From: Hamadaea sp. | GTDB lineage: Bacteria > Actinomycetota > Actinomycetes > Mycobacteriales > Micromonosporaceae | Direction: 5' to 3' | NCBI RefSeq assembly: GCF_013362815.1 | Contig: NZ_JABFVK010000014.1 | Span: forward strand, 62,001 to 126,000 | DNA: 64,000 nucleotides | Part shown: positions 24,562-62,751 of the stretch, one piece after another | Layout: every line of letters begins with the position of its first letter | Numbering within the stretch: the stretch's first letter is position 1 | Made by a program: the position numbers and the translations under genes | The notes under the pieces: model-generated | What the model saw: the letters and a program-made list of their open reading frames with translations, nothing else | The model's database searches: none | Told to the model about the DNA's origin: nothing

Positions 24562-24626
24562 GCGCTGGATCAGGGATCACGGCCGAATCATGGTCCAAGA
24601 TTCGACCCGGATCCCTGATCCAGCGC
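24562..24626. repeat. Family-2 palindromic element, copy a
   Basis: Perfect 17-bp outer arms (GCGCTGGATCAGGGATC at 24562-24578 and its complement at 24610-24626) enclose an inner imperfect pair containing GAATC and GATTC. It lies between convergent genes. Related copies are at 29241, 53631 and 62251. Confidence 0.85.
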
Positions 24627-24673
24627 TGAAGGCGGGAGCGCGGCGCGCGCCGAGCCCGGCTGGGCGGGTTGCC

Positions 24674-24734
24674 TGCAAATCACGGTTACGCAGGCCAAAC
24701 CGGCCTCGGGAAGCATGCGTAACCGTGATCTGCA
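24674..24734. repeat. Family-3 palindromic element, copy a
   Basis: ATCACGGTTACGCAGGC pairs imperfectly with GCATGCGTAACCGTGAT across a GC-rich middle. A second copy lies at 56248-56300. It sits 47 bp from family-2 copy a in the same convergent gap; the remainder of 24477-24757 is C-rich, with short GCTGCGCGCCC repeats near 24490-24530, and has no gene. Confidence 0.8.
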
Positions 24735-24757
24735 GCCGAAAAGCGAAAGCCGGAAGG

Positions 24758-26050
24758 TCAGGGGCCGAGGACGCGGGACAGGTAGGCGTTGGCGAACACC
24801 CGGTCGGGGTCGAGTTTCTCCCGGGCCGCGAGGAAGTCGCCGAACCGCGGGTACAGCGACGCGAAGTCGGACGAGTCCCGGTAGTGGATCTTGCCCCAGT
24901 GCGGCCGGCCGCCGTGCGTACGGAAGATCTGCTCGACCGCCCGGAAGTACTCGTGGTGGTCTTCCTTGTAGTAGCGGTGGACCGCGATGTATCCGGTCCG
25001 GCGCCCGTACGCCGTCGACAGCCAGATGTCGTCGGGAGCGGCGACGCGTACTTCGAGGGGGAAGGAGATCCGCCAGTTCTTGCGGGCGATCAGCTCCTCG
25101 ATCTCCCGGACGGCGTGCGGGATCGCCTCGACCGGGAGGGCGTACTCCATCTCGCGGAAGCGGACGCGGCGGACGGTGGTGAAGACCGAGGTCGAGACGT
25201 CGGTGAAGGTGCGGTCGCCGGTCAGGTGCGAGGCCAGCCGGTTGATCGACGGAATCGCCGCCGGGAGGGCCCGGCCGACGCCGCAGACCCAGGAGAAGAC
25301 GGTGTTGGACATGAACTCGTCGTCGACCCACCGCTTGAATCCGCCCAGCGGCGCGCTCTCCGAGGACGCGGGCAGACGGGTGTTGGTCTTCGTCAACGCG
25401 GTCGTCGTATGCGGGAACCAGTAGAACTCGAAGTGATCGGGTGCGGCCGAGCGCTCCAGAAACGACTCGAGTACGCCCGCCAGCGGCTCGGGCTGCTCGA
25501 CCGCCGAGAGCTTGAACGCCGGTACGCATTGCACCGTGATGTCCACGAGTACGCCGAGAGCACCGAGCCCGAGGCGGGCGGCACTGAACAGTTCGTGCGA
25601 GGAGTCGATCCGCAGGGTCTCCCCGGTCGCGGTGACGAGGGTGACCGCCACGATCTGGGTCGCGAGCCCGCCGAACGCCGCGCCGGTGCCGTGCGTACCG
25701 GTCGAGGTGGCTCCGGCGATCGTCTGGGCGTCGATGTCGCCGAGGTTCTGCATCGCCAGCCCGTGCGGGGCCAGCAACGCCGGAACCTCGTGCAGATGCG
25801 TACCGGCGGCGAGGGTGACCTGCTGAAGCTCCGGATCGACCCCCAGGAGACCGCTGAGCCGGGACAAGTTCAGCTGTACGCCGTCAGCGACGGCGATCCC
25901 GGTGAAGCTGTGTCCCGCGCCGATCGGCTTGACCGTCAGCCCGTCCCGGCGGGCGTCGGCGATCGCGGTGGCCACCTCGTCCGGCGACGCCGGAGTGACG
26001 ACGCGGACAGGGTTGGCGGACTCCGACCGACCCCAGTTGTGCCAAGTCAC
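24758..26050 (-). CDS. FAD-linked sugar-1,4-lactone oxidase (D-arabinono-lactone oxidase family), 430 aa
   Basis: An FAD-dependent oxidase of the VAO/ALO family. The N-terminal FAD domain has KPIGAGHSFTGIAV (His47 is the usual covalent FAD site) and AGATSTGTHGTGAAFGG. The C-terminal ALO domain ends with GGRPHWGKIHY, the HWGK signature. Such enzymes oxidise aldonolactones or polyols (alditol oxidase is a relative) and release hydrogen peroxide. It starts at GTG 26050 within the stop of the preceding gene (GTGA), as the last of four coupled genes. Its link to the PLP enzyme and the MFS transporter suggests one small-molecule pathway, identity unknown. Confidence 0.88.
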   Translation of the reverse strand: MTWHNWGRSESANPVRVVTPASPDEVATAIADARRDGLTVKPIGAGHSFTGIAVADGVQLNLSRLSGLLGVDPELQQVTLAAGTHLHEVPALLAPHGLAMQNLGDIDAQTIAGATSTGTHGTGAAFGGLATQIVAVTLVTATGETLRIDSSHELFSAARLGLGALGVLVDITVQCVPAFKLSAVEQPEPLAGVLESFLERSAAPDHFEFYWFPHTTTALTKTNTRLPASSESAPLGGFKRWVDDEFMSNTVFSWVCGVGRALPAAIPSINRLASHLTGDRTFTDVSTSVFTTVRRVRFREMEYALPVEAIPHAVREIEELIARKNWRISFPLEVRVAAPDDIWLSTAYGRRTGYIAVHRYYKEDHHEYFRAVEQIFRTHGGRPHWGKIHYRDSSDFASLYPRFGDFLAAREKLDPDRVFANAYLSRVLGP

Positions 26051-27258
26051 AGGAACACCTTTCCTTCGCCGCGATACGTCGGCACCGAGCCCACGACCGT
26101 CTGTCCGTCCACGATGTACAACTCGTCGACGTGTTCGCAGATCTCGCCGGCCTTGGTATGCCGCAGCCAGACCCGGTCGCCGACCCGCAGTGAGCGAGCG
26201 GCCGCACCGACTACCGGCGTCTGCACCTCGCCGGCCGCTTCCCGGGCCACATAGGACAGCCCGGTCGGCCACACGATCTGGGGCAGCCGATCCGGTCCGG
26301 GCGGGCCCGACGCGATCCAGCCGCCGCCGAGCAACGTCACCCGGTCCGGGGCGGGACGGCGTACGACGCTCAGGGCGAACGCGGCGGCCGGGGCCGGCGT
26401 GAAGTGCGCGTAATTGTCGAACAGATGCGGACCGAGCAGCCCAGATCCGGCGGTCACCTCGGTGACGGACGGGTCGGACGCGGTCGCCTCCAGGCTTCCG
26501 GTGCCGCCGCCGTTGACGAACTCCAGCTCGGCCAGCTCGCGGACGGCGGCGACGGCGGCGGTCCGCCGTTCGATCAGCTCCGCCATCGATCGCTTCTGGA
26601 CGGTCCGCAGTAGACGGCCCATGAGCGGCTTGCCGCGCGGCGCGTTTCCCAGCCCGGCGATCTGCGCCTCGTAGCCCATCATCCCGACGAGGGTGAAGCC
26701 GGGCCGCCGGACGATCTCGCGGGCCAGGGCGGCCGCCTCGGGCGCCTGCCGGATGGGCGACCGCCAAACGCCGACGTGCCCCAACAGGCGCGATCGGTAG
26801 GACGAGTCGAGCTCCATGCATACCCGGAACGGTTCACGGTGCGGCACGACGGAGTCGATGAAGTCCAGCTGCTCCACCGAGTCGACCATCAAAGTCACGC
26901 GCGTGGCCAGTTCCGGCGACACCGCCAGCTCCGCGAGCGCCGCGCGGTCCGCCGTGGGATAGCCGACGACCACGTCCTCGATGGTGCCCGCCAGCCACAT
27001 CGCCTCCGGCAGCGTGTAAGCGAGCACGCCCCGATACTGCGGCAGGGCCAGCAGGCTCGCGATCAGCTCACGGCTGCGGATGCTCTTGCTCGCCACCCGA
27101 ATAGGAGTATGCCCAGCGCGGCGGACCATGTCCTGTGCGTTGTGCCGCAGCGCTCCCAGATGGACAGTCCCAAAAGGAGGGTCCAACTCGGCGGTCGCCT
27201 TGTCGACCTCCGCCCAGCCCACGGGCAGGTGCGCTGCGGGCAACGACAGGTCGATCAT
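26047..27258 (-). CDS. PLP-dependent amino-acid deaminase/aldolase (D-threonine aldolase-like), 403 aa
   Basis: A fold-type III PLP enzyme: an alanine-racemase-like N-terminal barrel with the PLP lysine in RVASKSIRS (Lys58) and a C-terminal D-serine-dehydratase-like domain with a likely metal site (HTKAGEICEHVDELYIV). Relatives act on D-threonine, D-serine or beta-hydroxy amino acids. It overlaps the MFS gene before it (ATGA) and the lactone oxidase after it (GTGA). Exact substrate and reaction are not deducible. Confidence 0.85.
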   Translation of the reverse strand: MIDLSLPAAHLPVGWAEVDKATAELDPPFGTVHLGALRHNAQDMVRRAGHTPIRVASKSIRSRELIASLLALPQYRGVLAYTLPEAMWLAGTIEDVVVGYPTADRAALAELAVSPELATRVTLMVDSVEQLDFIDSVVPHREPFRVCMELDSSYRSRLLGHVGVWRSPIRQAPEAAALAREIVRRPGFTLVGMMGYEAQIAGLGNAPRGKPLMGRLLRTVQKRSMAELIERRTAAVAAVRELAELEFVNGGGTGSLEATASDPSVTEVTAGSGLLGPHLFDNYAHFTPAPAAAFALSVVRRPAPDRVTLLGGGWIASGPPGPDRLPQIVWPTGLSYVAREAAGEVQTPVVGAAARSLRVGDRVWLRHTKAGEICEHVDELYIVDGQTVVGSVPTYRGEGKVFL

Positions 27259-28520
27259 TTGACGCCTTTCACGGGTGCGACGCAGAGGGCGCCGACGAGC
27301 GAGGTGAGCCCGGCGATGAGGTAGAGCACCCCGAACCCGCCCGCGTACGCGACGATGGCCGCGCCGACCAGCGGAGCGACCGCCTGCGGCACGGTCGTCG
27401 CGATGTTCATGATGCCGAGGTCCTTGCCGTGCGTCGCCGGGTCGGGCAGCACCTGCGTCGCCAGGGCCTGGTCGACGGACAGGAAACAGCCGTAACCGAG
27501 CCCCAGCAGCCCGGCCCCCACGGTGGCGACGGTCAGGTTCGGGAAGACGGCCAGCAGGATGGCGGCCAGGGCCTGGCTGGCCGACGCCGTGATCACGAAG
27601 ATCTTGCGGCGGCCCAGGCGGTCGGACAACCGGCCCAGGTAGAGCGAGGCGGCGATCACGAAGAACATGTAGATCACCGAAAGCAGCAGCAGGGAGCCGT
27701 CCGGATCGGCCGCGTGCACGTGGTACTTCAGGAAGTACAGCAGGAGCGTGGTGCCGAATGCGTTGCCGAGGTTCACCAGAATCCGGCTGAGGAGGGTCCA
27801 GCCGAAATCGGGATGCTGCTTCGGGGAAACCCAGAAGCCGGCGAGCAAGCCGCGCAGGCTGAAGCGTTGCTTGTCACTCTGGCGGAGCGCTGCGTCAGGC
27901 GTACCAAGGAGAAAAGGAAGGACCAGCGCGACGAGCAAGACGGCGACGGTCGTATAGCCCCGGACCCGGCCCGTGAAGATGGTCGTGACCAGCAGCAGGC
28001 CGAGGATCGTGCCGATGGCCTGCGGTGCGGAGATCCAGCCGGAGACGAAGCCGCGCTGGCCCACGGGCACTTGGTCGGAGATGGTCGCGGTCAGCGCGGC
28101 CGTGAGCACGCAGAAGCCGATGAGCGCGAGCGTCCACCAGATGCCGACCGCGACGACGCCGGTTTGCGTGCCGAGAACCACCAGCGACACCGCGAACAGC
28201 AGCGTGCCGATGGCGATCCACGGACGGCGACGGCCGAACCGTGACGTCGTGCGGTCGGAGAGCGCCCCGGTCAACGGGTACGCGACCAGGGCGAACAACC
28301 CGGCGACGCCGGAGATGACGCCGAACGCCATGACGCTGCCGACCCAGTCGGAGGCCGGGCGTTGCGCCTCGACCTGCTCGGGCAGCAGCAATTGGACGGG
28401 CGTCAGCTGAGCCATCCAGATGCCCAGCCAGGCCAGGCCGAACAGGCCGACCCAGCGGCCGGTGACCGGCTTGGCGGGTTCGGCGAAGGCAGCGGGTCTT
28501 TCGGCGAGCATTTCGCTCAT
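27255..28520 (-). CDS. MFS transporter, 421 aa
   Basis: A 12-helix major facilitator protein. The loop 2-3 motif is GALSDRTTSRFGRRRPWI, and the second half repeats it as LGRLSDRLGRRKIF. The D-R-x-G-R-R-P-W form resembles sugar/cation symporter-like MFS proteins more than drug pumps. Start ATG 28520 overlaps the TetR stop (ATGA), and its stop overlaps the PLP enzyme start, so its level is tied to the operon. It probably imports or exports the substrate or product of the two enzymes. Confidence 0.88.
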   Translation of the reverse strand: MSEMLAERPAAFAEPAKPVTGRWVGLFGLAWLGIWMAQLTPVQLLLPEQVEAQRPASDWVGSVMAFGVISGVAGLFALVAYPLTGALSDRTTSRFGRRRPWIAIGTLLFAVSLVVLGTQTGVVAVGIWWTLALIGFCVLTAALTATISDQVPVGQRGFVSGWISAPQAIGTILGLLLVTTIFTGRVRGYTTVAVLLVALVLPFLLGTPDAALRQSDKQRFSLRGLLAGFWVSPKQHPDFGWTLLSRILVNLGNAFGTTLLLYFLKYHVHAADPDGSLLLLSVIYMFFVIAASLYLGRLSDRLGRRKIFVITASASQALAAILLAVFPNLTVATVGAGLLGLGYGCFLSVDQALATQVLPDPATHGKDLGIMNIATTVPQAVAPLVGAAIVAYAGGFGVLYLIAGLTSLVGALCVAPVKGVK

Positions 28521-29131
28521 GCCGGCTCCGAAGTGTCGAGAGGGTCCGCGAGCGCGGCGATCGCGTCCGCGGCGAAGTCGATGATCGGCTGAGTGGCCGC
28601 GCGGTCGCGATGAACCAGCCAGCCGAGGGTGAGCCCGTCGGTCAGGGTGACGACGATCCGGGCGATCTCGCTCGCCGGGCGGCTCCAGGTACGCCCGGTC
28701 AGCTGAGCGGCCGCTGCCACGATCCCTTCGGCCGCCTTGTAGTAACTCGCGTACTGGGCCTTTGCGGCTTCCCGCAGTTCCTCCGTACGCAGCGCGTACA
28801 GGGAGAGTTCGAACATCGCCTGTTCCCGGGCGGGGTCGGCGGCGACCAACTCGACGAAGCCTTCCAGGCCTCGTTTGATCGTCTCCCGCAGGTCGCGCCC
28901 GGGCGCGAGGGTCTGCTCCGCCGCCAGGCTCTCGTGCTCCACGACGTACGGGATGAGCTCGGCGATCAGTTCGTCCCGGGACCGGAAGGCGTAGTGGAAG
29001 CTGGCCAGCGACATGCCCGCCTCGGCGGTGATCGCACGAGTCGTTGCGGCCGCCACCCCGTCGGCGGCGATCACGCGCAGCGCCGCCTGGATCAGCGCGG
29101 CTCGCCGCTCGGTCACCGCCATCCTGGGCAT
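28517..29131 (-). CDS. TetR family transcriptional regulator, 204 aa
   Basis: The N-terminal helix-turn-helix reads ALRVIAADGVAAATTRAITAEAGMSLASFHYAFRSRDELI, typical TetR; the C-terminal domain is a helical ligand domain. ATG 29131 has GGAGGA about eight bases upstream; ATG three codons later is an alternative. It is the first gene of the four-gene operon and most likely represses it through the palindrome at 29150-29165. Confidence 0.9.
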   Translation of the reverse strand: MPRMAVTERRAALIQAALRVIAADGVAAATTRAITAEAGMSLASFHYAFRSRDELIAELIPYVVEHESLAAEQTLAPGRDLRETIKRGLEGFVELVAADPAREQAMFELSLYALRTEELREAAKAQYASYYKAAEGIVAAAAQLTGRTWSRPASEIARIVVTLTDGLTLGWLVHRDRAATQPIIDFAADAIAALADPLDTSEPA

Positions 29132-29149
29132 ACGGCACTTCCTCCGTAG

Positions 29150-29165
29150 TGGGTCAACTGACCCA
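29150..29165. promoter_or_regulatory. 16-bp palindromic operator of the TetR operon
   Basis: TGGGTCAACTGACCCA is a perfect inverted repeat with a 2-base centre. It lies 19 bp upstream of the TetR start codon. It is the probable autoregulatory site. Confidence 0.75.
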
Positions 29166-29240
29166 GTCGTGTGACCTAGAACTATGGCACGCGTCACGCT
29201 CCTTGTCCACGGCGCTTTTCGGTTTGGCGCGAGTGCTTAG

Positions 29241-29304
29241 GTGCTGGATCAGGGTTCTGGGCCGAATCTTGGGCGAAATACGACCGAGAACCCTGATCCA
29301 GCGC
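29241..29304. repeat. Family-2 palindromic element, copy b
   Basis: GCTGGATCAGGGTTCT (29243-29258) pairs with its perfect complement at 29287-29302 around an inner GCCGAATC/CGACC part. Unlike the other copies it lies between divergent genes, ending 19 bp before the glpK -10 box. Confidence 0.85.
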
Positions 29305-29322
29305 CCAAGGGGTTGGGTGCAC

Positions 29323-29328
29323 TAACCT
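29323..29328 (+). promoter_or_regulatory. -10 box TAACCT, leaderless promoter of glpK
   Basis: TAACCT is followed by six bases (CATCGC) and the GTG at 29335. There is no Shine-Dalgarno. The -35 region would fall inside the right arm of the family-2 element. Confidence 0.55.
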
Positions 29329-29334
29329 CATCGC

Positions 29335-30819
29335 GTGCGGTATGTCGCAGCCATCGATCAGGGCACAACCTCGTCCCGGTGCATCGTCTTCGACGCCGAG
29401 GGGCAGGTCGTCGCCGTCGACCAGCACGAGCACGAGCAGATCTTCCCGCAGCCGGGCTGGGTCGAGCACGATCCGGAGGAGATCTGGGCCAACGTACGCC
29501 GGGTCGTCAGCGGCGCATTGGACCGCGCCGGGCTGACCCGGTCGGACCTCGACGCCGTCGGGATCACGAACCAACGCGAGACGACCGTCGTCTGGGACAA
29601 GCAGACCGGCCGTCCGGTGCACAACGCGATCGTCTGGCAGGACACGCGTACGGACACTCTGCTGCGCGAATTCGGCGAGCCGGAGGTGTTCCGGGCGCAG
29701 ACCGGGCTGCCGCTGGCGACGTACTTCGCCGGGCCGAAGCTGCGCTGGCTGCTCGATCACGTGCCCGGACTACGGGCGCGCGCCGAGGCGGGGGAGGTGC
29801 TCTTCGGCACGGTCGACTCCTGGCTCATCTGGAATCTGACCGGCGGCCCGAAGGGCGGCCGTCATCTGACCGACGTCACCAACGCCAGCCGTACGCTGCT
29901 GATGAATCTCGCGACGCTCGACTGGGACGACGACATCGTCAAGGCGATGGGCATCCCGCGCGCGATGCTCCCCGAGATCCGCCCGTCCGTCGAGGTCTAC
30001 GGCGAGGCCCGGGGGGAACTGGCGGGCGTACCGGTGGCGGCGGCGCTCGGCGATCAGCAGGCGGCCCTGTTCGGCCAGACCTGCTTCTCGCCCGGCGAGG
30101 CGAAATGCACCTACGGCACCGGCAGCTTCCTGCTGCTCAACACCGGCACCCGGCCGGTCGCCTCGACCCATGGGCTGCTCACGACGGTCGGCTATCAGAT
30201 CGGCACCGGGCCGGCCGCGTACGCGCTGGAAGGGTCGATCGCAGTCACCGGCTCGCTGGTGCAATGGCTGCGCGACAACCTCGGCCTCATCCGGTCCGCC
30301 GACGAGATCGAGACGCTCGCGGCGAGCGTGCCCGACAACGGCGGCTGCTATCTGGTCCCGGCCTTCGCCGGCCTCTTCGCGCCGCACTGGCGCTCGGACG
30401 CGCGTGGGGTCCTCGCGGGACTCACCGGCTACGTCACCAAGGGCCACATCGCCCGCGCCGTGCTCGAGGCCACCGCCTGGCAGACCCGCGAGGTCGTCGA
30501 CGCGATGCTCCAGGACTGGGAGGGCGACGGCCTCGCGCAACTGCGGGTCGACGGTGGCATGACCGCCAACAACCTGCTCATGCAGTTCCAGTCCGACGTG
30601 CTCGACGTGGAGGTGGTCCGGCCCGCGGTCGCGGAGACGACCAGCCTCGGCGCGGCGTACGGCGCGGGGCTCGCGGTGGGGTATTGGCCCGACCTCGCGA
30701 CCCTCCGGGCACAGTGGACGGTCTCGGCCCGCTGGACTCCCGCGATGACCTCAGGGGTACGCGAAAAGGAGCTGACCCAGTGGCGTAAAGCGGTGCAGCG
30801 GACTCTCGGCTGGGTCTGA
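29335..30819 (+). CDS. glpK: Glycerol kinase, 494 aa
   Basis: A FGGY-family kinase that phosphorylates glycerol to glycerol-3-phosphate in the cytoplasm. It begins [18 protein letters not shown] (phosphate loop) and has the glycerol-kinase-specific [36 protein letters not shown] and the ATP site [11 protein letters not shown]. Length is normal for the family. No glpF or glpD lies next to it. It stands alone behind a leaderless-type promoter and is followed by a strong bidirectional hairpin. Confidence 0.96.
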
Positions 30820-30821
30820 CA

Positions 30822-30856
30822 CCCTGTCCCGCCCCTCGGCTGGGAGCGGGACAGGG
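30822..30856. terminator. Bidirectional hairpin terminator
   Basis: CCCTGTCCCGC (30822-30832) and GCGGGACAGGG (30846-30856) form perfect 11-bp arms with a 13-base loop. The hairpin lies between the convergent glpK and permease genes. T tracts are short. Confidence 0.8.
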
Positions 30857-30864
30857 CCGGTAGG

Positions 30865-32810: not shown

Positions 32811-32846
32811 CTGATCTCCCGGTGTGCCCTACGGGGCCGGTGGGCG

Positions 32847-32881
32847 GCCGGAGCCCCCTCCGAGGGGGACGGAGCTCCGGC
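32847..32881 (-). terminator. Intra-operon hairpin between the binding protein and permease genes
   Basis: GCCGGAGC (32847-32854) and GCTCCGGC (32874-32881) enclose an inner CCCCCTC/GAGGGGG pair. In sugar ABC operons such a structure protects the binding-protein mRNA or attenuates the permease genes. That role is an inference here. Confidence 0.65.
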
Positions 32882-35308: not shown

Positions 35309-36319
35309 ATGCAGGAGTTCATCGCCGGTCTACCCAAGGCCGAGCTGCACGTGCACCATGTCGGCTCAGCGTCGCCGCAGACCGTCGCCGCGCTGGCCGC
35401 CCGGCATGAGGGCACTTCACCGGTGCCGGCCGATCCCGACAAGCTGGCCGAGTACTTCACCTTCACCGACTTCGCCCACTTCGTGCAGGTCTATCTCAGT
35501 GTCGTCGACCTGATCCGGGACGCCGAGGACGTGCGTACGCTGACCGCCGGGATCGCCGCCGACCTGGCCGGCCAGAACGTCCGGTACGCCGAGCTGACTG
35601 TCACGCCGTGGTCGAGCGTCCGGCGCGGGATCCCCGCCGAGGCGTTCTGCGAGGCGATCGAGGACGTCCGGCTGATGGCCGCCCGTGACCTGGGACTCCA
35701 ATTGCGCTGGGTGTTCGACATCCCCGGCGAGGCCGGGCTGGAGGCGGCCGAGAACACCCTGCGGATCGCCCTGGACCAGCGTCCGGACGGGCTGATCAGC
35801 TTCGGCCTCGGCGGACCGGAGATCGGCGTGCCCCGGCCGCAGTTCAAGCCCTACTTCGACGCCGCGCGCGCGGCCGGACTGCACTCGGTCCCGCACGCGG
35901 GGGAGACGAGTGACGCGCAGAGCATGTGGGATGCCATCCACGAGCTCGGCGCGGAGCGCATCGGGCACGGCATCCGCGCAGTGCAGGACCCGGAGCTCGT
36001 CGCGTACCTGGCCGAGCACGGGATTCCGCTGGAGGTGTGCCCCACGTCGAACGTCTGCACCCGGGCCGTCGCCTCGCTCGACGAACACCCGTTGCCACAG
36101 CTCGTCGCGGCCGGGGTGCCGGTGAGCATCAACACCGACGACCCGCCCATGTTCTCGACCTGGCTCAACAAGGAGTACGCCGTCGCCGCCGACCTGCTCG
36201 GTCTCGACGAGCGGGGAGTCTCCGACCTCGCCCGGGCGGCGGTACGCCAGTCGTTCGCGTCGGACGCGGAGAAGTCCGCGCTGCTAGCCGAGATCGAGGC
36301 GTACTCAGACGCCGTGTAG
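35309..36319 (+). CDS. add: Adenosine deaminase family protein, 336 aa
   Basis: A zinc-dependent metal hydrolase of the adenosine/AMP deaminase family. The first metal motif is AELHVHHVGS (His14, His16; most relatives have HLHLEGS). SVPHAGE, GAERIGHGIRA, EVCPTSNV and VSINTDDPPMF supply the remaining histidine, glutamate and aspartate residues. It should convert adenosine to inosine, though this branch also contains adenine deaminases and enzymes for modified nucleosides. Its end overlaps the convergent PemK-like gene by 15 bp. Confidence 0.88.
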   Translation: MQEFIAGLPKAELHVHHVGSASPQTVAALAARHEGTSPVPADPDKLAEYFTFTDFAHFVQVYLSVVDLIRDAEDVRTLTAGIAADLAGQNVRYAELTVTPWSSVRRGIPAEAFCEAIEDVRLMAARDLGLQLRWVFDIPGEAGLEAAENTLRIALDQRPDGLISFGLGGPEIGVPRPQFKPYFDAARAAGLHSVPHAGETSDAQSMWDAIHELGAERIGHGIRAVQDPELVAYLAEHGIPLEVCPTSNVCTRAVASLDEHPLPQLVAAGVPVSINTDDPPMFSTWLNKEYAVAADLLGLDERGVSDLARAAVRQSFASDAEKSALLAEIEAYSDAV

Positions 36320-36772
36320 GCGGCGTACCTTCTGCCAGATCTTGGCGTCGAGCGTCCCGGCCCGGTCCTGGAAGCCGCCCAGCGGCACCCGGATCGGGCC
36401 GGTCAGGTCCAGCCAGCTGTCGTGATCCGCGTCCGGATCCCAGGTACGCGTCGGGATTACGACGTGATCGTTGCGGTCCGACTGGTCCTGGCTGGTGATC
36501 TTGAGTACCTCGCGGTCCCGGGCGCCGCCCCGGAGAACCAGGCACGGGCGTACTTTGTGGCCGGTTCCGTCCTCATAGGGCACATCAGCCCACCAGATCT
36601 CACCTGGTTGCGGGCCGCCCGCCGGAGTGGTGCTTCGCTTGGGTGGGGCGGGTTTCGGGCCGCGGCTCGGCTTGACGGGCCGCTGCGGCCGCTTCTCCGG
36701 CCGAGTGACAAGACGCGTGACGATCACGACGGCGGCGACGAGAGCGACGGCCAGCAGCACCCACCAGATCAT
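36305..36772 (-). CDS. Membrane-anchored PemK/MazF-like protein, 155 aa
   Basis: An N-terminal helix (residues about 2-20) and a basic Pro/Lys-rich linker (about 24-55) precede a PemK-like domain beginning PGEIWWADVPYEDGTGHKVRPCLVL. MazF/PemK toxins cut RNA, but no antitoxin gene is adjacent and a membrane anchor is atypical, so it may be a housekeeping RNA-binding protein or ribonuclease. ATG 36772 has TACAGT six bases upstream, which favours it over GTG 36790. It is convergent with the adenosine deaminase gene. Confidence 0.8.
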   Translation of the reverse strand: MIWWVLLAVALVAAVVIVTRLVTRPEKRPQRPVKPSRGPKPAPPKRSTTPAGGPQPGEIWWADVPYEDGTGHKVRPCLVLRGGARDREVLKITSQDQSDRNDHVVIPTRTWDPDADHDSWLDLTGPIRVPLGGFQDRAGTLDAKIWQKVRRLHGV

Positions 36773-37936: not shown

Positions 37937-39976
37937 GTGAGCGCAGCGCCCGCACCCGCCGCCGGCCAGACCGGAGACGCCGTCGTCACCGTGGCCGCCG
38001 GGACGACGGCCGCCGCCGCGGTGGCCGCCGCCGGACTGCCGGTGCACGGCCCGAAGGCGATCGTCGTCGTCCGCGACGCCGAGGGCACCCTGCGAGACCT
38101 GGACTGGACCCCGGCCACCGACGTCGAGGTGCAGGCGGTCCCGATCGACTCGCCGGACGGCCTGAACGTGCTGCGGCACTCCACCGCGCATGTCGTGGCG
38201 CAGGCGGTGCAAGACGTCTTCCCCGAGGCCAAGCTCGGCATCGGCCCGCCCATCGAAAACGGCTTCTACTACGACTTCCAGGTGCCCAAGCCGTTCCACC
38301 CCGAGGACCTGGCCAAGATCGAGACCCGGGCGCAGGAGATCATCAAGCAGGGCCAGATCTTCAAGCGCCGCCGGTTCGACTCGCTGGAGCAGGCCAAGTC
38401 GGAGCTGAAGGACGAGCCGTTCAAGCTCGAACTCGTCGACGTCAAGGGCGATGTGGACCCCGACGTCATGGAGGTCGGCGGCGGCGAGCTGACGATCTAC
38501 GAGAACTTCGATCCCAAGTCGGGCGACCGTTGCTGGGGCGATCTGTGCCGGGGTCCGCACCTGCCCAGCACCCGCCTGATCGCCGCGTTCAAGATCATGC
38601 GCAGTGCGGCGGCGTACTGGCGGGGCGACGAGAAGAACCCGCAGCTCCAGCGGATCTACGGCACCGCTTGGCCGACCCGGGACGCGCTCAAGGCGTACCT
38701 CACCTTCTTGGAAGAGGCGGCCAAGCGCGATCACCGCAAGATCGGCGCGGACCTGGACCTGTTCTCCTTCCCGGACGAGATCGGGTCGGGGCTCGCGGTC
38801 TTCCACCCGAAGGGCGGCATCATCCGCCGCGAGCTGGAGGCCTACTCGCGCAAGCGCCACGAGGAGTCCGGCTACGAGTTCGTGAACACGCCGCACATCA
38901 CCAAGGCGCAGCTGTTCGAGACCTCCGGCCACCTGCCGTACTACGCGGACACGATGTTCCCGCCGATGCAGCTCGAAGGCGCGGAGTACTACCTCAAGGC
39001 CATGAACTGCCCGATGCACAACCTGATCTTCTCGGCGCGCGGGCGGTCCTACCGGGAGCTTCCGCTGCGCTTCTTCGAGTTCGGCACGGTGTATCGGTAC
39101 GAGAAGTCCGGCGTGGTCCACGGCTTGACCCGCGTACGCGGCCTGACCCAGGACGACTCGCACATCTACTGCACCAAGGAGCAGATGCCGGGCGAGCTCA
39201 CGACGCTGCTGGAGTTCGTGCTGAACCTGCTCCGCGACTACGGGCTCGACGACTTCTACCTGGAACTGTCCACTCGCGACGACTCGCCGAAGTTCATCGG
39301 GGCCGACGAGGACTGGGCGGAGGCGACCGCCGCGCTGGAGACCGCCGCGCGCAACTCCGGCCTGGAGCTCGTGCCCGACCCGGGTGGCGCGGCGTTCTAC
39401 GGCCCCAAGATCAGCGTGCAGGCCCGCGACGCCATCGGGCGTACCTGGCAGATGTCGACGATCCAGGTCGACTTCAACCAGCCGGCCCGGTTCGGGTTGG
39501 AGTATCAGGCCGCCGACGGCACCCGTCAGCGCCCCGTCATGATCCATCGCGCGCTGTTCGGCTCGATCGAGCGCTTCTTCGGCGTGCTCACCGAGCACTA
39601 CGCCGGTGCGTTCCCCGCTTGGCTCGCTCCGGTGCAGGTGATCGGCATCCCGATCCGATCCGATTCGGGCGACGGCCCGGACCATGTCGCGTACCTGCGC
39701 GACTTCGCGGCTCAGCTGAAGGCGCGCGGACTGCGGGCCGAGGTCGACGCCTCGGACGACCGGATGCAGAAGAAGATCCGCAACGCGCAGGGGCAGAAGA
39801 TCCCGTTCATGGTGATCGCGGGCGATCAGGACGTGGCCGACGGCACCGTCTCGTTCCGCTTCCGCGACGGGTCGCAGCGCAACGGCGTACCGATCCCCGA
39901 GGCCGTCCAGCACGTCGAGGAGTTCGTGCGGTCGCGGGTCAACACCGCTCCGACCGCCGCCGCCCCGGTCGAATAG
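37937..39976 (+). CDS. thrS: Threonyl-tRNA synthetase, 679 aa
   Basis: A class II aminoacyl-tRNA synthetase charging tRNA-Thr. In order: a TGS domain (to about residue 75), the editing domain with [11 protein letters not shown] and CRGPHLPST, the catalytic core with MNCPMHN (zinc cysteine and histidine), motif 2 [20 protein letters not shown], motif 3 [19 protein letters not shown], and an anticodon-binding domain. GAGGAG lies seven bases before GTG 37937. Length is normal for actinobacteria. It opens the conserved block that continues with the HIT gene. Confidence 0.97.
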
Positions 39977-53630: not shown

Positions 53631-53699
53631 TGGCGCTGGATCAGGGTTCTCGGTCGAATCATGCGTCAAGATTCGACCGAGAACCCTGATCCAGCGCCA
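53631..53699. repeat. Family-2 palindromic element, copy c (perfect 30-bp arms)
   Basis: Two perfectly complementary 30-base arms (53631-53660 and 53670-53699) flank a 9-base loop (ATGCGTCAA). It lies between convergent genes and could also terminate yebC. It is the best-preserved member of the family; its left arm is identical to that of copy d at 62251. Confidence 0.92.
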
Positions 53700-54945: not shown

Positions 54946-54992
54946 CCCTGTGTCGGTCCTTACATCCGGTTTCAGAATTCGTCCCATCATTC

Positions 54993-54998
54993 TACGAT
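54993..54998 (+). promoter_or_regulatory. -10 box TACGAT, leaderless promoter of the CynX-type MFS gene
   Basis: TACGAT is followed by seven bases (CGGATTC) and the ATG at 55006. The short divergent gap (54946-55005) should hold the GntR operator as well, but I see no clean palindrome there. Confidence 0.55.
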
Positions 54999-55005
54999 CG
55001 GATTC

Positions 55006-56214: not shown

Positions 56215-56247
56215 CGCCCGCTTCGGGCGCGGCCGGCGTAAGCGTCA

Positions 56248-56300
56248 GATCACGGTTACGCATGCCTCAGCAGGTGCCGGAAGCATGCGTAACCGTGATC
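56248..56300. repeat. Family-3 palindromic element, copy b
   Basis: Perfect 18-bp arms (GATCACGGTTACGCATGC at 56248-56265, complement at 56283-56300) surround a 17-base loop. It lies in the gap between two + strand genes. The first copy is at 24674-24734. Confidence 0.88.
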
Positions 56301-56341
56301 CGCAGCGAAGGGGCGGGGCAGCGGCGACAGGCGGATCTCGT

Positions 56342-56347
56342 TAGGGT
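56342..56347 (+). promoter_or_regulatory. -10 box TAGGGT, leaderless promoter of the S41 gene
   Basis: TAGGGT is followed by seven bases (CCGGCGC) and the ATG at 56355. Confidence 0.5.
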
Positions 56348-56354
56348 CCGGCGC

Positions 56355-57500: not shown

Positions 57501-57529
57501 AACATCGCTGAATGTGTGGATCGCCGACA

Positions 57530-57553
57530 TGGCCCGGGTTCCCTCCCGGGCCA
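57530..57553 (+). terminator. Hairpin terminator after the S41 gene
   Basis: TGGCCCGGG (57530-57538) and CCCGGGCCA (57545-57553) are perfect 9-bp arms with a 6-base loop, followed by TAAGTTTT. It separates the S41 gene from the liv operon. Confidence 0.75.
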
Positions 57554-57634
57554 TAAGTTTTCGCGACATCAGTGGTCGGCGTCACACCTTCGCCGCCACT
57601 CCCGCGTACGCGAGCACACAGGAGGCGGCTGCCG

Positions 57635-58387
57635 ATGGCGCACAGCGCGCTCACCGCACGCGCCCTGACCCGCGATTTCCGCGGCTTCCGGGCGGTGGAC
57701 GCGGTCGACCTCGAGGTCGCCGACGGCAGCGTGCACGCGCTTGTCGGACCGAACGGGGCCGGTAAGACGACGCTGTTCAATCTGCTCACTGGTTTCCTGA
57801 CGCCCACTGCCGGGCGCATCGAAGTGGGCGGGCGCGACATCACCGGCCTCGCGCCGGAGAAGATCGCGCGGCTCGGCGTGGCCCGCAGTTTTCAGATCAC
57901 CAGCCTGTTCGGTCAGCTGACCTGCCGCGAACACGTCGAACTGGCGCTGGCGGGCGACCTCGGCTGGAAGTTCTGGCGGTCGGACAAGCTGCTGCACCGA
58001 CACCGTGACCAGGCGATGAGCCTGCTGGACCAGGTCGGCCTGGCCGAGCACGCCGAATCCACCGCGGACAGTCTGGCGTACGGGCGGAAGCGGGCGCTCG
58101 AACTGGCCCTGGCGCTGGCCTTGGACCCCAAAGTACTGCTGCTCGACGAGCCGACCGCCGGGATGGGCGTCGAGGACGTCGATCGCACGGTCGACCTGAT
58201 CGGCCGGGTACGCGACGGGCGGACGGTCGTCATGGTCGAGCACAACATGAGCGTCGTCGGGGCGCTGGCCGACCAGGTCACCGTGCTCCAGGCCGGGAAG
58301 GTGCTCGTCGAGGGGGCGTACGCCCAAGTCCGCGACGACGAGCGCGTCATCAGCGCGTACCTGGGGGAAGCACATGTTGCGGATTGA
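57635..58387 (+). CDS. livG: Branched-chain amino-acid ABC transporter ATPase LivG, 250 aa
   Basis: The first ATPase of a hydrophobic-amino-acid (HAAT) importer. Walker A is GPNGAGKTT (about residues 39-47); FQITSLFGQLTCREHVELAL is typical LivG. Walker B is LLLDEPTAGM and the switch histidine is in VEHNM. The signature motif reads LAYGRKRALELALAL, as is usual in LivG. GGAGG nine bases before ATG 57635 supports the start. It opens the livG-F-K-H-M operon and overlaps livF by 14 bp. Confidence 0.94.
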   Translation: MAHSALTARALTRDFRGFRAVDAVDLEVADGSVHALVGPNGAGKTTLFNLLTGFLTPTAGRIEVGGRDITGLAPEKIARLGVARSFQITSLFGQLTCREHVELALAGDLGWKFWRSDKLLHRHRDQAMSLLDQVGLAEHAESTADSLAYGRKRALELALALALDPKVLLLDEPTAGMGVEDVDRTVDLIGRVRDGRTVVMVEHNMSVVGALADQVTVLQAGKVLVEGAYAQVRDDERVISAYLGEAHVAD

Positions 58388-59066
58388 CGGCCTGAACGCC
58401 TGGTACGGCGAGGCGCAGGTGCTGCGCGACGTGGCGCTGGAGGTGGCATCCGGCGAGGTGGTGACGCTGTGCGGCCGTAACGGCGCCGGGAAGACCACCC
58501 TGCTGCGCAGCGTGATGGGCCTGCATACGCAGCAACGCGGCGCGATCAGCCTGCGCGGCACGGACCTCACGAAGAAGCCCGCGCACAGCCGGGCCCGGCT
58601 GGGGCTGGGCTGGGTGCAGGACGACCGCGGCAGCTACGCCACGCTGACCGTGACCGAGAACCTGACGCTGCCACCCCGCGTCGGGCCGCGCTCCTGGTCG
58701 CTGGACCGCATCTACGAGATGTTCCCGAACCTGTACGAGCGGCGGTCTTCGCCCGCGACCAAGCTGTCCGGCGGCGAGCAGCAGATGCTCGCGCTGGCCC
58801 GCGTCCTGCGGATGGGCGCCGAGCTGCTGCTGTGCGACGAGCCGACGGAAGGGTTGTCACCGCTGCTGGTACAGCGGGTCGGCGAGATTCTGCGGCTGGT
58901 CAAGGCCGACGGCGGCACCGTGCTGCTCGTCGAGCAGAACCTGCATTTCGCCACGACCGTCGCCGACCGGCATCACCTGCTGGCCGAGGGCCGGGTCGTG
59001 GAGTCCCTCGACAACACCGAGGTGCGTAACCGCGAGCGCGAGCTGCTCGCGTATCTGGGCATCTGA
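58374..59066 (+). CDS. livF: Branched-chain amino-acid ABC transporter ATPase LivF, 230 aa
   Basis: The second HAAT ATPase. Walker A is GRNGAGKTT, the signature is LSGGEQQMLALARVL and Walker B is LLLCDEPTEGLSP; VEQNLHFA has the glutamine form of the switch region. LGLGWVQDDRGSYATLTVTENL matches LivF, which has PEDR-like variants at this position. It starts 14 bp inside livG and is followed after 20 bp by the binding-protein gene. Confidence 0.94.
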   Translation: MLRIDGLNAWYGEAQVLRDVALEVASGEVVTLCGRNGAGKTTLLRSVMGLHTQQRGAISLRGTDLTKKPAHSRARLGLGWVQDDRGSYATLTVTENLTLPPRVGPRSWSLDRIYEMFPNLYERRSSPATKLSGGEQQMLALARVLRMGAELLLCDEPTEGLSPLLVQRVGEILRLVKADGGTVLLVEQNLHFATTVADRHHLLAEGRVVESLDNTEVRNRERELLAYLGI

Positions 59067-59086
59067 CTCTCAATGAGGAGAACGCG

Positions 59087-60322
59087 ATGAAGAGATTTGC
59101 GACGGCCCTGGGCGCGGTGGCCCTGCTGGTCACCGCGTGCGGCGGCGGCCCGCAGTCCGGCGGCGACAGCAAGCTCACGGGCGGCAAGATCGTGCTCGGC
59201 GTGCTCAACGACCAGTCGGCCGGTTACTCGGCCCTGTCGGGGAAGAACTCGGTCGAGGCCGTCAAGATGGCGATCGAGGACTTCAAAGCCAAGTACGGCG
59301 ACAAGGCGGTGACCTCCGACATCGAGGTCGTCGACGCGGACCACCAGAACAAGCCGGATGTGGCCAACACCAAGGCGGCCGAGTTCTACGACCGTGACGG
59401 TGTCGACGCGATCCTCGACGTGCCCACGTCGTCGGCGGCTCTGAAGGTGGCCGACGTCGCGAAGGCCAAGAAGAAGCTCTACTTCAACATCACCGCCGCC
59501 ACGACGGACCTGACCGGGAAGTCCTGCAACAAGTACACGTTCCACTACGCGTACGACACGTACATGCTGGCCAACGGCACCGGCAAGAACGCCACCGAGA
59601 ACGGCGCGAAGAACTGGTACATCGTGTACCCGAACTACGCCTTCGGCCAGGACATGGAACGCAGCTTCAAGGCGGCGGTCGAGAAGGCGGGCGGCCACGT
59701 CGTCGGCGAGGACGCCGCGCCGTTCCCGAGCGACAACTTCTCCACCTACCTGCTGAAGGCGCCGACGCTGAATCCGAAGCCGGACGTCATCGGCACCATG
59801 CAGGCCGGGTCGGACCTGGTGAACCTCGTGAAGCAGTACAACGAGTTCAAGCTGCGGGACAAGGGCGTCGGCCTGTCGGTCGGCCTGATGTTCCTCACCG
59901 ACATCCACTCGCTGACCCCGGCGGCGCTGGCCGGCACGACCTACACCGACGCGTGGTACTGGAACTTCGACGCCAAGAACCGCGAATGGGCCGACAAGTT
60001 CAAGGCGCGTACGGGGTCGCGGCCGACCTTCGCCCATGCCGCGAACTACTCGGCGGCCACTCAGTACCTCGAGGCGGTGCAGGCGGCGGGCACCGACGAC
60101 GCCGACAAGGTCGTCGCTCAGCTGGAGGGCAAGAAGGTCGACGACTTCTTCCTGCGCAACGGTGAGATCCGCAAGGCCGACCACCGGGTGCTGCATGACG
60201 CGTACCTGGCTCAGGTAAAGCAGCCGGACGAAGTCAAGGAGGACTGGGACTACGTGAAGATCCTCAAGACCATCCCGGCCGCCGAGGCGTTCCGCGCGCC
60301 GAGCCCCGACTGCCAGCTCTGA
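59087..60322 (+). CDS. ABC transporter substrate-binding lipoprotein (LivK/amide-binding type), 411 aa
   Basis: The extracellular receptor of the importer. The lipobox is LVTAC (Cys18). The periplasmic-binding-protein-like fold begins IVLGVLNDQSAGYSALSG, then VEAVKMAIEDF; NYAFGQDMERSFKAAVEKAGG is typical of the family. These binders take branched-chain amino acids, amides/urea or aromatic acids, so the ligand should not be assumed from the operon name. AATGAGGAG precedes the ATG. Confidence 0.92.
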   Translation: MKRFATALGAVALLVTACGGGPQSGGDSKLTGGKIVLGVLNDQSAGYSALSGKNSVEAVKMAIEDFKAKYGDKAVTSDIEVVDADHQNKPDVANTKAAEFYDRDGVDAILDVPTSSAALKVADVAKAKKKLYFNITAATTDLTGKSCNKYTFHYAYDTYMLANGTGKNATENGAKNWYIVYPNYAFGQDMERSFKAAVEKAGGHVVGEDAAPFPSDNFSTYLLKAPTLNPKPDVIGTMQAGSDLVNLVKQYNEFKLRDKGVGLSVGLMFLTDIHSLTPAALAGTTYTDAWYWNFDAKNREWADKFKARTGSRPTFAHAANYSAATQYLEAVQAAGTDDADKVVAQLEGKKVDDFFLRNGEIRKADHRVLHDAYLAQVKQPDEVKEDWDYVKILKTIPAAEAFRAPSPDCQL

Positions 60323-60330
60323 CGCTCATC

Positions 60331-60372
60331 GCCCGGCGGCTGCCGTTCGAGCGGCACGCCGCCGGGGCTTTT
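60331..60372 (+). terminator. Intra-operon hairpin with T4 tail
   Basis: GCCCGGCGGC (60331-60340) pairs with GCCGCCGGGG(C), and an inner GCCG/CGGC extends the stem; TTTT follows at 60369-60372. It lies between the receptor and permease genes and should reduce read-through, giving more receptor than permease. Confidence 0.72.
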
Positions 60373-60384
60373 CGAAGGAGCACG

Positions 60385-61269
60385 ATGACCAACTTCTTGG
60401 AACAGACCTTCAACGGTCTGGTGAGCGGCAGCTTCCTGGCGCTGCTGGCGCTCGGGCTCGCCGTCATCTTCGGCCTGCTGCGGGTGGTCAACTTCGCCCA
60501 CGGCGCGATCTACATGCTCGGCGCGTTCGGGGCATACGTGCTCGCCGACGAGCTCGGCCTGTCGTTCTGGGCCGCGTTGATCGCGGTGCCACTCGGGCTG
60601 GCCGTGGTCGGAGTCGTCCTGGAACGCGCCTTCATCCACCGGCTGACCCGGCTCGATCCGCTCTACAACTTCCTGCTGACCTTCGGCCTCACCTTGATCC
60701 TGCAAGACCTGGTCAAGGCGCGGTACGGCGTCCAGTCCTCTCCGTACGCCGTGCCGAGCGCGCTTTCCGGCAGCGTCGACCTCGGCCTGTTCGAATTCCC
60801 GGCGTACCGGGTCTTCGTGCTCGCCATGTCCGTCGCGATCTGCGTCGGCGTGTGGGCCCTGCTGACGCGCACGCGCATCGGCATGGTCGTCCGTGCCGCC
60901 ACCGAGCGCCCCGAACTGACCCGGGCGTTCGGGATCGACGTCGGCCGGTGGATCACCCCGGTCTTCGGCTTCGGCGTGGCGCTGGCCGGGTTGGCCGGTG
61001 TCCTCGCCGCCCCGATGCGGGCGGTGCATCCGCTGATGGGGGCGGATCTGATCATCGTCGTCTTCGCGGTCGTGGTGATCGGCGGCCTCGGCTCGATCTT
61101 CGGCTCGGTGGCGGTCGGCTTCGTCATCGGCGTGCTGCAGGTCTGGGCGGAGGCGTACGCCCCGGAGTCCTGGCGGGCGCTCATCGCTCAGACCCTGCCT
61201 TTCCTGCTCATGGCGGTCGTGCTCCTGTGGCGCCCGGCCGGCCTGTTCGGCCGTGAGGAGACCGCGTGA
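60385..61269 (+). CDS. livH: Branched-chain amino-acid ABC transporter permease LivH, 294 aa
   Basis: An inner-membrane permease with about eight helices. GLVSGSFLALLALGLAVIFGLLRVVNFAHGAIYMLGAF is the classic LivH opening; the ATPase-contact loop is RAATERPELTRAFGIDVGR, followed by a glycine-rich FAVVVIGGLGSIFGS. GAAGGAG precedes ATG 60385. Its stop overlaps livM (GTGA). Confidence 0.94.
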   Translation: MTNFLEQTFNGLVSGSFLALLALGLAVIFGLLRVVNFAHGAIYMLGAFGAYVLADELGLSFWAALIAVPLGLAVVGVVLERAFIHRLTRLDPLYNFLLTFGLTLILQDLVKARYGVQSSPYAVPSALSGSVDLGLFEFPAYRVFVLAMSVAICVGVWALLTRTRIGMVVRAATERPELTRAFGIDVGRWITPVFGFGVALAGLAGVLAAPMRAVHPLMGADLIIVVFAVVVIGGLGSIFGSVAVGFVIGVLQVWAEAYAPESWRALIAQTLPFLLMAVVLLWRPAGLFGREETA

Positions 61270-62237
61270 CCACCGACGTGCTGCCCGAAGTCGGCCGACC
61301 GGCGAGGGCCCGAGCGAAGCGCTTCGCCAGGCCGGCTCTGCTGGCTGCCGGACTGATCGTCGCGGTGTGGCTGCCGAACGGCATCTACACCGGCCTGGCC
61401 GTCGACCTGTTGTGCTGGGCCCTCTTCGCGGTCTCCGTCGACCTGCTCCTCGGGTACGCCGGGCTGCTCTCGTTCGGCCATGCGGCGTACTGGGGCTCGT
61501 CGGCGTACGCGACGGGGTTGCTCGCCGTCCACCTGGGACTGCCGTTCCCGCTGGCGGTGCTGGGCGGGGCGCTGACCGCCGCACTCATCGCGATCCCGGT
61601 GGGCTTTCTCGCGGTCAAGCGCGTCGGCATCTACTTCGCCATGGTGACGCTCGCCTTCGCTCAGATGATCTACTTCATCGCCAACGAATGGCGCAGTGTG
61701 ACGGGCGGGGAGAACGGCATGCAGTCGGTGCCGCGTACGTTGGGCTCGGCCGACTTGAGCGACAACTACTACTTCTACTACGCCGCGCTCCCGATCGTCC
61801 TAGGTGGACTGTGGCTGGCCTGGCGGATCGTGCACTCACCGTTCGGCCGCGTACTCGTCGCCATCCGCGACAATCCCGCTCGCGCTCGCGCCCTCGGCTA
61901 CCCGGTCCATCGCTACAAGCTCGCGGCGTTCGTGCTGTCCGCGTTCGTCGCCGGGCTCGGCGGCGGCCTCTTCGCCCTGGCCCATCAGTTCGTCAGCCTC
62001 GACACGCTGCATTGGACCACCTCCGGCAAGGCCGTGATCATGGTGGTGCTCGGTGGGATCGGCACGCTCTGGGGCGCGCTGTTCGGCTCCAGCTTCGTCG
62101 TGGTCCTCGAAGACTCGTTGTCGCAGGCCGATTTCGCCAGCCCCGGTCTGCTCACCGGCGGCATCTTCGTGCTAGCCGTGCTGCTGTTCCGGCGCGGCCT
62201 CTGGGGGAGCGTCGCCGCCTTCTTCCGCCGCCGCTAA
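61266..62237 (+). CDS. livM: Branched-chain amino-acid ABC transporter permease LivM, 323 aa
   Basis: The partner permease. LLGYAGLLSFGHAAYWGSSAYATGLL, AIRDNPARARALGYPVHRYKLAAFVLSAFVAGLGG and VVLGGIGTLWGALFGS are all LivM hallmarks. It starts at GTG 61266 within the livH stop and closes the operon. A family-2 palindrome begins 13 bases after its stop. Confidence 0.94.
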   Translation: MTTDVLPEVGRPARARAKRFARPALLAAGLIVAVWLPNGIYTGLAVDLLCWALFAVSVDLLLGYAGLLSFGHAAYWGSSAYATGLLAVHLGLPFPLAVLGGALTAALIAIPVGFLAVKRVGIYFAMVTLAFAQMIYFIANEWRSVTGGENGMQSVPRTLGSADLSDNYYFYYAALPIVLGGLWLAWRIVHSPFGRVLVAIRDNPARARALGYPVHRYKLAAFVLSAFVAGLGGGLFALAHQFVSLDTLHWTTSGKAVIMVVLGGIGTLWGALFGSSFVVVLEDSLSQADFASPGLLTGGIFVLAVLLFRRGLWGSVAAFFRRR

Positions 62238-62247
62238 CTCTGGGCGC

Positions 62248-62751
62248 TCATGGCGCTGGATCAGGGTTCTCGGTCGAATCTTGAGGTGTGATTCGGCCCG
62301 GAACCCTGATCTGCGTGCCTTGGGGCTTGGGCGCGAGCAGCCGGTAGGCGACCGGCCCCGCGAACGGCAGGCCCACGACCGACAAGATCACGGCCAGAAC
62401 CATGGTCACGCCGGTCGGCAACGCCAAGCCGGTGAGCCACACCAGGCCCGCGACGATCAGCTGGTACGCGACGACGCCGAGACCGGTCGCGAAAAGCGCC
62501 TTGCCCACCACGGATAAGGCACCCGGCCGCGCCGTCCGCCCGAGTCCCGGCAGCGCTCGCAGTCCGAGCAGCACGCCGAGCCCGGCGATGCCGCCGATGC
62601 CGATCCCGGCGATGCTCCCGGGCACCGCCAGCGCCGGTTGCGCGGTCAGCCAACCGGCGTCGCCGAGCGCGGTGTCGGCGGCGTACGCCCCGGTCAGGCC
62701 GCCCCCGACGCCGAGGACCAGTACGCCGAGCACGGTGAGGGTCTTGGCCAC
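62248..62751 (-). CDS. Four-helix membrane protein with repeat-derived C-terminus, 167 aa
   Basis: Function unknown. Four hydrophobic segments: about residues 4-26, 42-66, 84-108 and 115-138. GTG 62751 is chosen because TACATT lies six bases upstream and no Shine-Dalgarno is present. The last 23 residues (GTQIRVPGRITPQDS then TENPDPAP) are encoded exactly by the 69-bp family-2 element; the TGA stop lies just beyond it. The ancestral protein therefore probably ended near LLAPKPQ. It is convergent with livM. Confidence 0.7.
   Translation of the reverse strand: MAKTLTVLGVLVLGVGGGLTGAYAADTALGDAGWLTAQPALAVPGSIAGIGIGGIAGLGVLLGLRALPGLGRTARPGALSVVGKALFATGLGVVAYQLIVAGLVWLTGLALPTGVTMVLAVILSVVGLPFAGPVAYRLLAPKPQGTQIRVPGRITPQDSTENPDPAP
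62251..62319. repeat. Family-2 palindromic element, copy d (inside a coding sequence)
   Basis: The left 30 bases (62251-62280) are identical to the left arm of copy c at 53631-53660. The right arm (62290-62319) has several mismatches, for example CTGATCTGCGTGCC for CTGATCCAGCGCCA. The element fills the last 23 codons of the minus-strand membrane-protein gene. Confidence 0.9.

Follow-up and report, generated by a model that had tools for sequence, protein, structure and literature searches.

Repetitive extragenic palindromic (REP) elements and the REP-like repeats of bacterial chromosomes are, judging from the papers drawn on here, best understood where a gene for a REP-associated tyrosine transposase (RAYT) is present. 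In the account of Di Nocera et al. (2013, PMC3733652) a REP is a unit of 20–40 bp that carries GTAG or CGTC, unpaired, at one of its ends, and such a tag, or a RAYT, is treated as the mark of REPs and of REPINs (PMC3733652, PMC3116915, PMC2817692); the same account also lists palindromic repeats without a tag from M. tuberculosis, D. radiodurans, Bordetellae, Brucellae and Cyanobacteria. We analysed a stretch of 64,000 nucleotides (the window) from Hamadaea sp. (Micromonosporaceae; assembly GCF_013362815.1, contig NZ_JABFVK010000014.1, positions 62,001–126,000), in which a preliminary description made from the sequence alone had noticed a family of four long palindromes. These belong to what we call family A, which was followed through the source genome (G000, 7.45 Mb) and three sister genomes in Hamadaea (G001, G002 and G003). 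We consider it probable that the palindromes are dispersed, non-autonomous hairpins which, in the manner of REPs or REPINs, are copied by an enzyme acting in trans and are retained mainly downstream of stop codons.

All four palindromes are present, and are given here without strand: copy a (24562–24626) lies between convergent genes for a CGNR zinc-finger regulator and a lactone oxidase, copy b (29241–29304) between a TetR gene and the glycerol kinase gene, which are divergent, copy c (53631–53699) between yebC and a convergent gene that matches no Pfam family, and copy d (62251–62319) 13 nt past the stop of a gene for a branched-chain amino-acid permease, gene context throughout being that of a simple codon-usage gene caller and not of a published annotation. 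The 12-mer GCTGGATCAGGG occurs exactly seven times in the window, every time within one of these copies, and as RNA the four fold much more stably than shuffled sequence, with z from −7.6 to −12.5 and energies of −46.9, −40.2, −63.3 and −45.5 kcal/mol. As had been described, copy c consists of 30 perfect base pairs flanking a 9-nt centre and has its left arm in common with copy d; that all four share their arms holds in general, with the exceptions that the right inner arm of copy b is decayed (AAATACG in place of GATTCG) and that the right outer end of copy d reads GATCTGCG, not GATCCAGCGC. The placement reported for the copies, three convergent and one divergent, stands for a and c (convergent) and for b (divergent), whilst copy d is partly coding and not purely intergenic: a minus-strand open reading frame (ORF; 62248–62751) without Pfam match runs through it and takes its last 23 residues from the palindrome. 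A C-terminal tail like this one (QIRVPxRIxxxDSTxNPDP) is encoded in G002 and G003 too, where the ORF is slightly longer. The window has no Rfam match at the gathering threshold and no tRNA gene.

Four copies proved to be a large under-count. The arm pattern GGATCAGGGNTCNNGGNCGAATC with at most two mismatches occurs 216 + 221 = 437 times in the source genome, against 0 for the reversed control, and 165 complete family A palindromes are found there with at most three mismatches. Among 60 relatives searched with this pattern, G002 holds 202 + 199 arms (401), G003 118 + 119 (237) and G001 only 1 + 2, and of the other 57 a single genome has a single arm. With a wider pattern that fits G001 as well (at most one mismatch), applied to 354 Micromonosporaceae genomes, the counts were 311 (G000), 185 (G003), 329 (G002) and 516 (G001), and 1–3 isolated hits occurred in 40 of the 350 genomes outside these four; an exact search of named genomes returned at least 65 stretches, those among the matches listed all coming from a Hamadaea metagenome-assembled genome (Bin8.36). 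The search of the complete genome and its relatives with the palindrome arm has hence given hundreds of copies, confined to one genus among the genomes searched. For closer inspection 427.7 kb of the source genome were sampled for holding copies, so that copy density in this sample is not representative. A chance origin of the palindromes is ruled out by the copy counts with 0 in the control, the clustering of the 12-mer and the folding z-scores. Carriage by phages, plasmids or viral contigs was dropped as an explanation, since collections of phages and plasmids contain no match to copy c and viral contigs no match to the arm pattern. Two irregularities in distribution were also seen: contig C31 of the source genome has, from about 15 to 597 kb, two zero-mismatch family A arms among those listed and one more at 597 kb, which per kb is far below other contigs, and density may vary along the chromosome; in G003 C1, 16 successive listed zero-mismatch arms between 3.7 and 6.0 Mb are all on the plus strand, which may be an effect of which matches were listed or mean that the better-kept arm is biased to one strand.

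In G001 the palindromes are of a different but homologous type, family A', which retains the outer GGATCAGGG and inner AATC.TGG of family A and has the middle replaced. Its arms (TTTGGATCAGGGNNNNCACCCGAATC, at most two mismatches) number 177 + 183 (360) in G001 and 0 in G000, G002 and G003. From 639 kb of G001 we gathered 58 complete copies, 57 of which were used for the logo; one further copy was left out as its right arm is cut by the stretch end. An ACGTG box is present on one arm only in 47 of the 58, and the two arms of these copies thus differ, typically reading AAATCACCCG and ACGTGCGAAA; the asymmetric copies show no clear strand preference in tandem gaps (hand count of 8 sense and 11 antisense, n=19). 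In five pairs of copies the 62-bp cores are identical and the flanks only 25–46% alike: since identical cores sit in unrelated flanks, the comparison points to dispersal by copying and not by segmental duplication.

Turnover at single sites was followed between the source genome and G003, where 33 palindromes with a GATC near the base of the stem (family A and further families described below) could be mapped to orthologous gaps outside ORFs: 14 of these gaps hold the same family in G003, 7 hold another family and 12 hold none. Six of the seven exchanges have hairpin or alignment support and the seventh, which lacks a hairpin, is recognised from its arm sequence alone. For ordinary hairpins, 12 of the 14 mapped orthologous gaps retain the hairpin (p 0.0096 for the difference), or 10 of 12 (p 0.020) when two misfiled family members, one B with mutated GATC and one short D type, are removed; mapping was impossible for 10 GATC palindromes and for 13 ordinary hairpins. 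These figures are from a strict recount by arm seeds and hairpins, in which a family is taken as absent if the other palindrome of G003 has its own counterpart in the source genome; a looser motif test of the same 33 gaps gave 12 conserved, 9 of another family and 12 absent, and by the score rule of that test alone 12 of 33 GATC palindromes and 12 of 14 ordinary hairpins are kept (p 0.0034). As for the window, the gap of copy a has family A with the same centre in G002, whilst in G003 family A was not found and only the neighbouring B palindrome remains; the gap of copy b has B-type sequence in G002 and G003 and no hairpin listed in G001; at the gap of copy c family A occurs in G002, whereas the G003 palindrome is of B2 type; and the site of copy d has family A in both G002 and G003. 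At orthologous gaps, two copies of one family resemble each other no more than unrelated copies do (13 comparisons; 0.83–0.89 for family A against a background mean of 0.83), and a shared family at a site is for this reason no proof of inheritance by itself. Inversion of the element between orthologues, suspected at three sites, was inseparable from the background of like copies. One of the 12 family-less gaps holds a remnant made up of the outer ends. In the gap of G003 C1 orthologous to G000 C17:70770, only the outer ends of a family A element are left, as would be expected after an internal deletion.

The copies are near-constant in length, with a core of 55 bp in family A and of 62 bp in A' (about 83 bp overall), and are least conserved in the central 1–3 bases, in dinucleotide 13–14 of family A and in the right-arm box of A'. 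Strict pairing was found for 44 of 46 arms in the sampled sequence of the source genome, one of the other two having a diverged partner and one being cut by the stretch end. Among 50 zero-mismatch family A copies of this genome, position 10/46 covaries (43 of 50 matching, 31.2 when shuffled) and positions 7, 13, 14, 17 and 24 taken singly do not; for dinucleotide 13–14 as a unit, 19 of the 50 copies match where shuffling gives 10.3, and matching subtypes within one copy could reflect lineage as well as pairing. Because most of the variable paired positions tested singly lack covariation, the arms seem to be conserved for their sequence more than for pairing in the stem. On contig C28 of the source genome, to the right of 38222–38274, a right arm and its flank are tandemly duplicated beside a family A palindrome, as hairpin slippage might leave.

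The GATC is common to several families. Samples of G000, G003 and G001 contain 123 intergenic hairpins of at least 45 nt that give 13 multi-copy clusters, and in 10 of the 13 most members have GATC within the first 15 arm bases (one further G001 cluster, with the GATC deeper in the arm, was scored as a miss); the figure is 7 of 27 for single-copy hairpins (p 0.005) and 12.8% for random intergenic 18-mers. Single-link clustering merges A, A', B and B2, so that there are more families than clusters. Family B, for which the pattern GATCACGGTTACGCATGC (at most two mismatches) finds 81 + 80 arms in the source genome, has two members in the window, again without strand: one at 24673–24735, with GATCACGGTTACGC arms and one GATC mutated to AATC, shares its gap with copy a and has a family B counterpart at the same gap in G003; the other, at 56248–56300, has 18 perfect pairs and a 17-nt centre and lies between tandem genes, in a gap unmappable in G003. 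A 4-bp target duplication as a general explanation for the GATC is unsupported: conservation extends past the GATC in A, A' and B, and of the empty palindromic targets that would match it, CTGGATCCAG and CAAGATCTTG are almost lacking, though CATGATCATG is not.

With respect to genes, the palindromes favour gene ends, most copies lying a short way past a stop codon. Of the A' copies, 25 of 54 are in convergent gaps, where 11.6 are expected by random placement in gaps of at least 65 nt (p 0.0002), and 5 are in divergent gaps, where 17.4 are expected (p 0.0005); the remaining copies of the 58 are at stretch ends (three) or in an ORF (one). Convergent gaps hold 8 of 20 placed family A copies in the source genome (p 0.014), with 3 divergent against 6.8 expected (p 0.058), and 5 of 8 in G003 (p 0.004). 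In tandem gaps A' copies sit nearer the stop of the upstream gene (relative position 0.37, p 0.011 for n=24), and family A stands at 0.34 in the source genome (n=9, p 0.045) and at 0.41 in G003 (n=3, p 0.30). Some copies do lie in divergent gaps or inside ORFs.

A copying enzyme was looked for at three levels. PF01797, which covers RAYTs and IS200/IS605 transposases, had no match in any of the four genomes, of which G000 is 97% and G002 87% complete, in a search whose control was positive for 5 of 14 known genomes. In the window all 56 predicted genes, including 16112–19414, and a minus-strand ORF overlapping this gene were scanned against Pfam without a hit to a transposase domain, and 7 of the 56 matched no Pfam family; this agrees with the earlier statement that neither a transposase nor a RAYT gene is in the window. 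Eight pairs of A' copies at most 3.5 kb apart were inspected for a transposase flanked by the same ends, and none was recognised by eye among the 17 predicted genes that they enclose, which we take to be ordinary metabolic, transport and regulatory genes. Elsewhere in the window, a MazF/PemK-like toxin domain is encoded at 36305–36772 on the minus strand, with no Pfam antitoxin match in either adjoining gene.

Outside Hamadaea, profile searches of other genera with A and A' gave weak hits only. Samples of five other Micromonosporaceae genomes contain few long intergenic hairpins (1.2–5 per 100 kb), but G019, from another genus of the same family, has 17.9 per 100 kb. A 58-nt palindrome family of its own is present in G019; 140 kb contain 12 copies, mostly at gene ends, of which 7 are convergent, 4 tandem and 1 inside an ORF. 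The centre of this family (GGAATCTTGG) resembles the family A core, whilst the outer arms (CAGTTTCGGGGAAAGTGC) differ and lack the GATC tag. Eight of the first 14 hits of the A' profile fall on 7 of these 12 copies, none individually significant (E at least 2), only 2 of the first 14 hits of the A profile do so, and the best hit of each profile lies outside this family: kinship with the Hamadaea palindromes is a lead and not a proof. The stretches of G019 concerned (L175, L176 and L215–L219) contain at least two multi-copy families of long palindromes, with CAGTTTCGGGGAAAGTGC and GACGCTGGCCTATC arms, and at position 10537 of L215 there is a palindrome with GTTGATCATGAAC arms like those of Hamadaea family D.

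The hundreds of copies, their unlike flanks, the restriction to one genus, the absence or exchange of palindromes at orthologous gaps and the lack of a Y1/RAYT match together support a family that is copied. On this view each element is a short unit, almost constant in length, with two arms maintained as inverted repeats, and an enzyme provided in trans would have copied it to many places. What we infer of the enzyme, the route and the role of the GATC is that the hairpin may be recognised as folded single-stranded DNA, that the GATC near the stem base would be part of this recognition, and that the enzyme is probably not a Y1 transposase; placement at gene 3' ends could come from selection against insertion elsewhere, possibly with use as hairpins at transcript ends. 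A number of observations weigh against such a history. Neither an enzyme nor a parent element was found by the window Pfam scans, by PF01797 in four genomes or among the genes between A' pairs, and no target duplication was found, the intergenic DNA of the sister species being too diverged for a clean empty site. The preference for gene ends would in part be expected of terminators too. Copy d looks inherited in three species and is the clearest such case, because an asymmetric end and the reading frame are shared across them; the likeness of copies across orthologous gaps, being no greater than background, gives no age for single copies. Few copies with the same hairpin conserved in place, the outcome that would have meant ordinary terminators, were looked for and not found, yet 14 of the 33 mapped sites do keep their family in G003. 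Of the preliminary interpretation, a REP- or MITE-like family (MITE, miniature inverted-repeat transposable element) copied within this lineage and not a set of independent terminators, the copying is hence borne out, whilst membership among REPs or MITEs is not established because target duplication, parent element and enzyme were not found and movement was not seen.

The most probable alternative is that the palindromes are bidirectional terminators of the lineage, alike through gene conversion or a shared sequence requirement and not through mobility. Their hairpins are very stable, they are in excess in convergent gaps and close to upstream stops, 14 of the 33 mapped sites keep the family in G003, and ordinary hairpins are somewhat rarer beside a GATC palindrome, occurring in 5 of 32 such convergent gaps as against 23 of 68 (samples of G000 and G003, p 0.09). 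The T-run of an intrinsic terminator is nevertheless missing: the 8 nt after the hairpin contain 0.95 T for GATC palindromes (n=55) against 1.95 for ordinary hairpins (n=40) in the source genome, and 1.28 (n=47) against 1.89 in G003, and at least four T follow only 2% and 9% of the palindromes in these two genomes. Further, the palindromes are retained less at orthologous gaps than ordinary hairpins, have copies in divergent gaps and inside ORFs, and show covariation only at 10/46 among the variable paired positions tested singly, with 13–14 as a unit above the shuffled level. Site turnover, the missing T-run and the copies outside gene ends make an origin as ordinary terminators unlikely, and we give the bidirectional form a low probability, roughly a third of that accorded to copied elements; a hairpin role at transcript ends is compatible with the observations and may exist.

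Slightly less probable again is that the palindromes are dispersed sites for a sequence-specific DNA-binding protein with a function in the nucleoid or in segregation, the specificity of which changed between species for all sites together. Arm sequence that is conserved where pairing is not kept, the differing boxes on the two arms of most G001 copies and the genome-wide switch from A to A' would suit such sites; turnover at single sites, the near-absence of unpaired half-sites from the sample and the preference for gene ends do not, and as new sites of 50–60 nt are unlikely to arise by point mutation, copying would be needed anyway. That the palindromes are MITEs of a classical DDE insertion sequence appears very improbable to us, even though they are small, multi-copy and species-specific inverted repeats, most clusters of which share GATC near the end: no transposase domain is in the window and none was recognised in the genes between A' pairs, conservation reaches beyond the GATC, and two simple empty targets are nearly absent from sampled intergenic DNA (CTGGATCCAG once, CAAGATCTTG never), but CATGATCATG was found 9 times.

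Hamadaea, in which hundreds of copies and a version that replaces the family outright in one species go together with the lack of a RAYT match, offers a clean case in which to ask what else spreads short palindromes, and whether 3'-end hairpins are swapped like interchangeable parts. The families could serve as typing markers, and they call for caution in annotating hairpins as terminators in these genomes. More tentatively, and with doubts that outweigh our confidence, we suggest a third tagged super-family of REP-like elements, with GATC in both arms, in Actinomycetota and with machinery other than a Y1 RAYT, whose families compete for sites at gene ends and replace each other between species; the central GAATCTTGG-N-CC core would be common to the otherwise different family of the second genus.

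Comparison with described systems places the Hamadaea palindromes beside REPs and REPINs and not within them. They share with REPs a copy number above 100 and an extragenic position near gene 3' ends, with few copies in divergent gaps or ORFs. Where the REPs of PMC3733652 are 20–40 bp long, the Hamadaea palindromes measure 55–86 bp, with cores of 55 bp (A) and 62 bp (A'), and in place of an unpaired GTAG or CGTC end their consensus has GATC within the stem on both sides, inside both arms; as they have neither the tag nor a RAYT, we do not file them as REPs. The main text of that survey has no word beginning with gatc or actinobact, and the literature searches listed nothing on these repeats. 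Closer are the REPINs as presented by Bertels and Rainey (2011, PMC3116915), likewise inverted doublets at a fixed distance that form a hairpin, spread through extragenic space and have a less conserved spacer; REPIN arms are REPs, linked there to RAYT genes, whereas the four Hamadaea genomes are without a Y1 (PF01797) match and the variable stretch lies within the arms as well as in the centre. The untagged palindromic repeats in PMC3733652 are, like those of Hamadaea, REP-like without conserved terminal motifs, a likeness at the level of description; unlike them, most of the multi-copy clusters in Hamadaea share a GATC near the base of the stem.

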